Below are positions 932-1,147 of a stretch of DNA of 40,079 nt, in pieces (position 1 is the stretch's first letter; each line of letters begins with the position of its first letter). A program made the position numbers and the translations under genes. The notes under the pieces were generated by a model. The model did not search any database, had not been told where the DNA came from, and was given only the letters and a program-made list of their open reading frames with translations. The stretch is from Spirochaetota bacterium (lineage in GTDB: Bacteria; Spirochaetota; Spirochaetia; Treponematales; UBA12059): contig JAKQKE010000209.1 in assembly GCA_029560805.1 (NCBI GenBank), positions 1 to 40,079 on the forward strand. Direction: 5' to 3'.

Positions 932-1012
932 ATGGACGCAATGAACGTTAACGCTATCTATTATTACCGCTCGTACTCGACGCGACTCCCACGAGGGATC
1001 TCGCGAGGCTAG
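932..1012 (+). CDS. Tyr-rich 26-residue leader peptide of tyrS attenuator
   Basis: A 26-codon frame runs from ATG 932 to TAG 1010-1012 in the gap between dpaL and tyrS. It contains a run of three Tyr codons (TAT TAT TAC, 959-967) and a fourth Tyr codon at 974-976, within the string AIYYYRSY. Four Tyr codons within six, placed 25 nt before an intrinsic terminator that precedes the tyrosyl-tRNA synthetase gene, is the classic arrangement of a ribosome-mediated attenuator. Ribosome stalling at Tyr codons when charged tRNA-Tyr is scarce would favour readthrough into tyrS. The start has no Shine-Dalgarno but sits 6 nt after a -10-like TACAGT, consistent with a leaderless mRNA. An in-frame ATG at 941 is an alternative start. 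The peptide itself probably has no function after synthesis. Confidence 0.75.
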   Translation: MDAMNVNAIYYYRSYSTRLPRGISRG

Positions 1013-1042
1013 CGGTAGTCCATACGCCGCGATAGCCCGCGG
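981..1042 (+). promoter_or_regulatory. Attenuator: pause and antiterminator pairings before tyrS
   Basis: Hand folding gives mutually exclusive helices. Hairpin 1:2 pairs CGCGA 981-985 with TCGCG 1001-1005, with an inner TCCC 987-990 / GGGA 995-998, and starts 4 nt after the last Tyr codon. The alternative antiterminator 2:3 pairs 1001-1010 with 1034-1042 (GGCT/AGCC and CGCG/CGCG around a bulged A1006), which occupies the 5' arm of the terminator at 1037-1046. A ribosome stalled at Tyr15 (974-976) would cover strand 1 and release strand 2 for the antiterminator. Further complementarities (965-971 with 1011-1017; 932-937 with 1018-1023; 953-958 with 1031-1036) may stabilise the terminating form. 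This is inference from complementarity only. Confidence 0.6.
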
Positions 1043-1078
1043 CCGGTTCCCCGAGGGGGTGCCGGCCGCGGTTTTTTT
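1037..1078 (+). terminator. Intrinsic terminator of the tyrS attenuator
   Basis: A perfect 10-bp GC stem (CCGCGGCCGG 1037-1046 with its complement 1062-1071) encloses a loop containing a CCCC/GGGG extension and is followed directly by seven T (1072-1078). It lies between the leader peptide and tyrS, 70 nt before the tyrS start, so it can only control readthrough into tyrS. Confidence 0.9.
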
Positions 1079-1147
1079 ATCATCCGTGGCTGGCGCCCCG
1101 ACGAGGCCGACCCGCGCTCATTCGCGACGATCCACGAGGAGGCATAC

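Follow-up and report, generated by a model that had tools for sequence, protein, structure and literature searches.

The window analyzed here is a stretch of 40,079 nucleotides, contig 56 of a 3.33-Mb draft genome, and all its features described below lie on the forward strand. Near its start, a truncated dpaL gene ends at position 888 and is followed, after a gap of 43 nt, by a small open reading frame (ORF) of 26 codons at positions 932 to 1012, which encodes MDAMNVNAIYYYRSYSTRLPRGISRG and stops with TAG at 1010 to 1012. Codons 10, 11, 12, and 15 of this ORF are Tyr codons (959 to 967 and 974 to 976, spanning 959 to 976). Another 24 nt separate the stop codon from the first arm of an intrinsic terminator at 1037 to 1078, which was identified by folding and covariation. 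Its 10-bp outer stem is formed by CCGCGGCCGG (1037 to 1046) and CCGGCCGCGG (1062 to 1071), enclosing an inner CCCC/GGGG stem, and it is followed by a run of seven T residues (1072 to 1078); the folding energy of the hairpin is about -36 kcal/mol. Downstream lie the Shine-Dalgarno sequence GAGGAGG (1136 to 1142) and a gene encoding a tyrosyl-tRNA synthetase of 406 amino acids, tyrS (1148 to 2368; TIGR00234, 294.8 bits with a cutoff of 113.8). A sequence-only reading of this DNA had described the same order of a 26-codon frame with Tyr at codons 10, 11, 12, and 15, a terminator, and tyrS, and its coordinates proved right. The same genome holds a second tyrS on contig 63, which is 33% identical to the window gene and has an ordinary start without a leader. 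We therefore regard the window gene as an auxiliary copy and the other one as the housekeeping synthetase.

The Tyr-codon ORF and the terminator are unlikely to stand together by chance, because the pattern TAYTAYTAYNNNNNNTAY has a single match in the 3.33-Mb genome, in the leader at 932 to 1012, because a scan of the window found a leader-like ORF with a terminator at this locus only, and because the design recurs at all 14 auxiliary tyrS loci described below. In the genome-wide pattern search, the reversed control pattern had nine matches. The leader-plus-terminator region folds 4.1 standard deviations below dinucleotide shuffles.

An extended -10 promoter element, TGCTACAGT, is located at 917 to 925. 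It is identical in a genome of the same genus (G015), amid otherwise diverged sequence. The -35 element of the window is weak (TAGCCG), and TTGACN is found in several relatives, often 17 to 18 nt upstream of the -10 box. At 14/14 loci the best predicted -10 box ends 6 to 9 nt upstream of the leader start codon, so that the leader mRNA is probably leaderless, as the sequence-only reading had proposed. With a start site assumed 6 to 8 nt past the -10 box, the 5' end would fall on the leader start codon or at most about 3 nt before it. That transcription probably begins at or just before this codon rests on promoter consensus and comparison, with no mapped start site.

Auxiliary tyrS genes with Tyr-codon leaders

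We searched for relatives of the locus in 294 genomes of the order and then in one genus more densely. G015, the closest relative and a member of the same genus, keeps the promoter, a leader encoding VDSKRAHVSYYYRSYSSRLPRGGSRG up to its stop codon, the terminator, and the tyrS Shine-Dalgarno sequence at 81% DNA identity. The searches gave six further members of the window clade, five of them from a different genus and the sixth from a third family, with the leaders MKRFNLRNQYYRPYSLHLLRGGMRY, MNAVSTAKKYYYRYCASTLIGGVAKE, MKLSMTVNQYYRLYSLYLLCGGIRY, MKNVMTVNKYYYRYNGSFLPGGGMKG, MTNSICNNQYYSRYLMYLLRGGIRY, and MNRTFPVSSYYYRLMEFARGGTVTARS. A second clade of auxiliary TyrS proteins, 36 to 39% identical, comprises the loci L004, L005, L006, L007, L008, and L119, whose leaders are MNDAACLFLHYYPRPKGPDRG, MTTRMPASAQYYYYSSRRAYRD, MIIFRQSKVFYYYFSAPPITGK, MDNILPMHLFYYSSRPPHRV, MDALPLMQACYYQSQPPHHREP, and MRSDARSYYRRSSSSVDRARGRE. 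All 14 loci of the two clades in the order have the design of a leader with a YY pair, a terminator, and tyrS. The leaders span 20 to 27 codons; YY is present in every one of them, and the rest of the peptide diverges. The position of the start codon, the length of the frame, and the Tyr codons are kept across the relatives, with TAC and TAT interchanged; translation of the leader is inferred from sequence alone, without ribosome profiling. All window-clade leaders have their first Tyr pair at codon 10, and five of the six second-clade leaders have it at codon 11 (codon 8 in L119).

In G015, the tyrS gene itself (L112, on contig 151) lacks 26 bp between two AGCTCCT repeats about 0.45 kb into the gene, which breaks the frame. 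Either the gene has decayed or the assembly contains an error.

In a tree of 54 TyrS proteins, both auxiliary clades are monophyletic and they are not sisters. The switch upstream of them has thus either arisen twice or persisted while the enzyme was exchanged. An automatic scan for a YY leader followed by a terminator picked out every auxiliary locus of the two clades found by then. It gave no hit at about 60 other tyrS loci from these searches, within the order and phylum, nor at 80 more distant tyrS relatives from other phyla, and a wider origin of the leader was rejected on these grounds. Second tyrS genes of the order also form a third, small and separate clade (L117 and L118, in genomes G044 and G077), which showed neither a Tyr leader nor the frameshift described below. 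A T-box or any other known Rfam leader was rejected as well, as neither the window nor 16 sources with related tyrS loci gave an Rfam match.

These comparisons bear on whether the hairpin is merely the ordinary 3' terminator of dpaL, with a Tyr-codon ORF standing by coincidence in a gap as short as that after position 888. This reading can practically be dismissed. A dpaL gene precedes the leader in the same genus only; the 12 other related loci carry the leader and the terminator without dpaL in the available DNA. At every locus a promoter is predicted directly before the leader, and 14/14 retain the Tyr cluster. The sequence-only reading had placed the element in a dpaL-tyrS gap. It is now seen that the leader travels with tyrS, a second copy, and that the dpaL part of that picture does not hold beyond the genus. 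That reading would have fallen if related genomes had kept the terminator and lost the Tyr codons, and every relative in the two auxiliary clades keeps both.

Competing helices and ribosome position

Besides the terminator, two mutually exclusive pairings can be drawn from three strands. Strand 1 (965 to 971) covers the third Tyr codon and the Arg codon that follows it, and compensatory changes indicate that it pairs with 1011 to 1017. Strand 2 (1002 to 1017) pairs either with strand 1, through 1011 to 1017, or with strand 3 as an antiterminator. Strand 3 (1026 to 1041), supported by covariation, is common to the antiterminator and the terminator. In the antiterminator, 1002 to 1005 pair with 1038 to 1041 and 1012 to 1016 pair with 1026 to 1030.

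Covariation was analyzed in two alignments, A4 with seven sequences and A3 with five, all of them related, so that few events are available. Columns of A4 convert to window positions by adding 931 up to column 100 and 930 from column 102. In the terminator, 93.8% of the cells are paired and five pairs have two-sided changes. The Tyr-codon hairpin (965 to 971 with 1011 to 1017, plus inner pairs) has 81 to 87% of the cells paired and three two-sided pairs, and the antiterminator has 90 to 93% and three two-sided pairs; slid controls gave far lower pairing. At locus L115, bases 967 (the wobble base of the third Tyr codon), 1015, and 1027 are changed together. Base 1015 has 967 as its partner in one state and 1027 in the alternative state, and in L115 it covaries with both. 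Similarly, base 1040 covaries with 1003 in the antiterminator and with the 3' arm of the terminator. Covariation with two partners fits the prediction of mutually exclusive pairing, within the limits of few events in related genomes.

The comparison also modifies the structures first folded by hand. The antiterminator suggested in the sequence-only reading, 1001 to 1010 with 1034 to 1042, remains possible and is extended by the conserved helix of 1012 to 1016 with 1026 to 1030. The hairpin at 981 to 1005 which that reading had taken to block the antiterminator is part of the picture, but the conserved Tyr-codon hairpin is that of 965 to 971 with 1011 to 1017 instead. Conservation of the helices with compensatory changes, which the same reading had named as the check to be made, was found for all three helices in five to seven related sequences.

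Could the leader act through its peptide, as a TnaC-like nascent-peptide arrest sensor for free tyrosine or a drug, and not through codon hunger? Leaders of the window clade do share residues past the Tyr run (L..RGG). However, these residues are encoded by bases within the conserved hairpin, and the second-clade leaders do not have them. The peptides are unrelated apart from Tyr, and with the Tyr cluster as early as codon 10 the nascent chain would be short. We consider such an arrest very unlikely.

It is likewise highly improbable that control is mainly translational, by access to the tyrS start or by mRNA stability, with a hairpin that does not work as a terminator. The T runs are short or interrupted in L114, L166, and L119, as this explanation would have it, but most loci have T5 to T9, and in the window the tyrS Shine-Dalgarno sequence lies about 60 nt past the hairpin, outside the conserved helices.

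We folded the RNA downstream of a ribosome boundary, which was assumed to lie at the A-site codon plus 13 nt, up to the 5' arm of the terminator. At 14/14 loci, placing the ribosome at the best Tyr codon gave a stronger predicted antiterminator than placing it at the stop codon or leaving it out (Wilcoxon P = 6e-5); using the mean over the Tyr codons, the same contrast gave a P value of about 0.001. When the antiterminator was tested against shuffled spacers, no single locus was significant, and the combined P value was about 0.017 for the first 12 loci. The evidence for the putative antiterminator comes from the set of loci and from covariation, not from single-locus shuffles.

For the window alone, the predicted energy contrast is modest. 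The antiterminator energy (dG_anti) was -12.2 with the ribosome at Tyr15, -5 to -6 at Tyr10 to Tyr12, -10.2 at the stop codon, and -9.2 without a ribosome, so that Tyr10 to Tyr12 come out weaker than the stop and no-ribosome states. That the window ranks among the weaker loci is due to a local hairpin, 1026 to 1031 with 1038 to 1043, which occupies part of the terminator arm in most states, even with the ribosome at the stop codon. The hairpin has 6 bp (GCCGCG/CGCGGC) and overlaps the terminator in its 5' arm. L112 and L114 have similar hairpins, which may act as a pause site or as a second timer.

A Tyr-rich leader ORF, an intrinsic terminator, an antiterminator sharing a strand with it, and a competing hairpin over the control codons are among the features by which ribosome-mediated transcription attenuators are recognized, and at the sequence level the window shows these four. 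In the mechanism we propose, transcription would start at or beside the leader start codon and a ribosome would load on the leaderless 5' end. When Tyr-tRNA is plentiful, the ribosome would pass the Tyr codons to the stop at 1010 to 1012 and cover strand 2, the terminator would form, and tyrS would be off. When Tyr-tRNA is scarce, the ribosome would stall on the Tyr codons, and these codons belong to strand 1 of the hairpin. Strand 2 would then be available for strand 3, which is the terminator's 5' arm; pairing of the two would keep the terminator from forming, and tyrS would be transcribed. Without translation, strands 1 and 2 would pair and the terminator would form.

We consider it very likely that a ribosome-mediated transcription attenuator of this kind couples the auxiliary tyrS to the amount of charged tRNA-Tyr, although there are no expression or translation data. 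The attenuation first proposed in the sequence-only reading is supported by the relatives in both auxiliary clades, which keep the Tyr codons and the terminator, and by the compensatory changes in the helices. The leader, its Tyr codons, the terminator, the promoter position, and the covarying helices are seen in the sequence and by comparison; stalling, antitermination in vivo, and induction by a shortage of tyrosine or of tRNA charging are inferred. Against the attenuator, or limiting the case for it, stand the modest energy contrast of the window, covariation drawn from only five to seven related sequences, and the deletion in the G015 tyrS.

A putative frameshift site in the second clade

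All six second-clade tyrS genes (L004 to L008 and L119, from six genomes of six genera) start with ATG GGG TAC, with a Shine-Dalgarno sequence a few nucleotides upstream. The starts are at 1439 in L004, 1433 in L005, and 1424 in L119 on the forward strand and at 1472 in L006, 1457 in L007, and 1439 in L008 on the reverse complements. In all six genes frame 0 runs into a stop at codon 8, which is TGA, TAA, or TAG, and the codons leading up to it differ. The frame that encodes TyrS is the -1 frame (G GTA CGG AAC GAG ...), and divergence by codon position (0.15/0.06/0.44) shows this frame to be under coding constraint from GTA (codon 3) on. Near the beginning of the second-clade genes, no start codon was found in the -1 frame except TTG in L006 and, further upstream, ATG in L007, neither of them with a shared context; the ATG of ATG GGG TAC is the only plausible start.

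The slippery site G GGG UAC is invariant in the six genes. On it, the Gly-tRNA in the P site could move back by one base and pair again without a mismatch, with a Tyr codon waiting in the A site. The chance that UAY is kept at the A site in six genes by codon usage is 1.7e-7 as a product, uncorrected for shared ancestry. In the simplest reading, the -1 frame is apparently gained mostly when Tyr-tRNA is scarce. The dependence on Tyr is inferred, the rate is unmeasured, and a constitutive frameshift is not excluded.

The tyrS of the window itself does not have the AUG GGG UAC frameshift site. A pattern search of 393 genomes of the phylum gave one extra match to the site (L133, in genome G507), which is not in a tyrS and was rejected as a chance match, and a protein search added no close relatives to the frameshifted TyrS clade.

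A 2016 review (PMC5009743) pointed to starvation-specific products as a possible use of frameshifting at hungry codons, for which "no examples are known." The sister genes are a concrete candidate answer to the open question of whether cells use frameshifting at starved codons purposefully. If confirmed, this would be a first case in nature of hungry-codon frameshifting that serves regulation, with prfB as an analogue. Like the +1 programmed frameshift of prfB, it would be an early frameshift with an in-frame stop and feedback on a translation factor; unlike prfB, the sister tyrS genes would shift by -1, and the sensor would be a sense Tyr codon, not a stop. Taking the clades together, we lean toward the view that the auxiliary tyrS genes of the order form a Tyr-tRNA-sensing system of up to two layers, a leaderless Tyr-codon attenuator in both clades and, in the second clade only, a starvation-dependent -1 frameshift at AUG GGG UAC, right where tyrS begins, in which slipping into the TyrS frame would be limited to ribosomes held up at the hungry Tyr codon.

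Comparison with known systems

In the attenuators of Escherichia coli pheST and of the trp, his, leu, and thr operons of Proteobacteria, control codons in a short leader are combined with mutually exclusive helices and an intrinsic terminator. As in pheST, the target here is an aminoacyl-tRNA synthetase. The present case differs from these systems in its amino acid, Tyr, in its gene, an auxiliary tyrS, in an apparently leaderless leader, in its probable spirochaete host, and in the lack of a match to any Rfam leader family. The T-box of Bacillus tyrS is also a premature terminator upstream of tyrS which responds to the charging of tRNA-Tyr. A T-box reads the uncharged tRNA directly, and none is present at the window locus by the Rfam search.

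Among synthetase genes, classical attenuators have been described for pheST and, in Streptomyces, for trpS and leuS (PMC1262725), and leaderless ones for several Streptomyces synthetase genes (PMC8079986). The Streptomyces trpS, leuS, alaS, and thrS attenuators resemble ours in being leader-peptide attenuators before synthetase genes, several of them leaderless, but there is no Tyr or tyrS case among them. For tyrosine, no RNA regulatory structure was found in Actinobacteria, and T-boxes were named as its RNA-level control elsewhere (PMC1262725). We found no leader-peptide attenuator of tyrS in the literature searched, which included few subscription papers and is only weak evidence of absence.

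Since synthetase attenuators are known elsewhere, tyrosine control has been ascribed to T-boxes, and Rfam gives no match, we place the window element, on its sequence-level features, among the ribosome-mediated attenuators. The kind of mechanism is already known; the amino acid (Tyr), the gene (tyrS), and the phylum are new. Leader-peptide attenuation of tRNA synthetases is documented, in the literature searched, for pheST in gammaproteobacteria and for trpS, leuS, alaS, and thrS in Streptomyces; the locus would extend it to tyrosine and tyrS and to an order that is probably spirochaetal, with a leader that is apparently leaderless.
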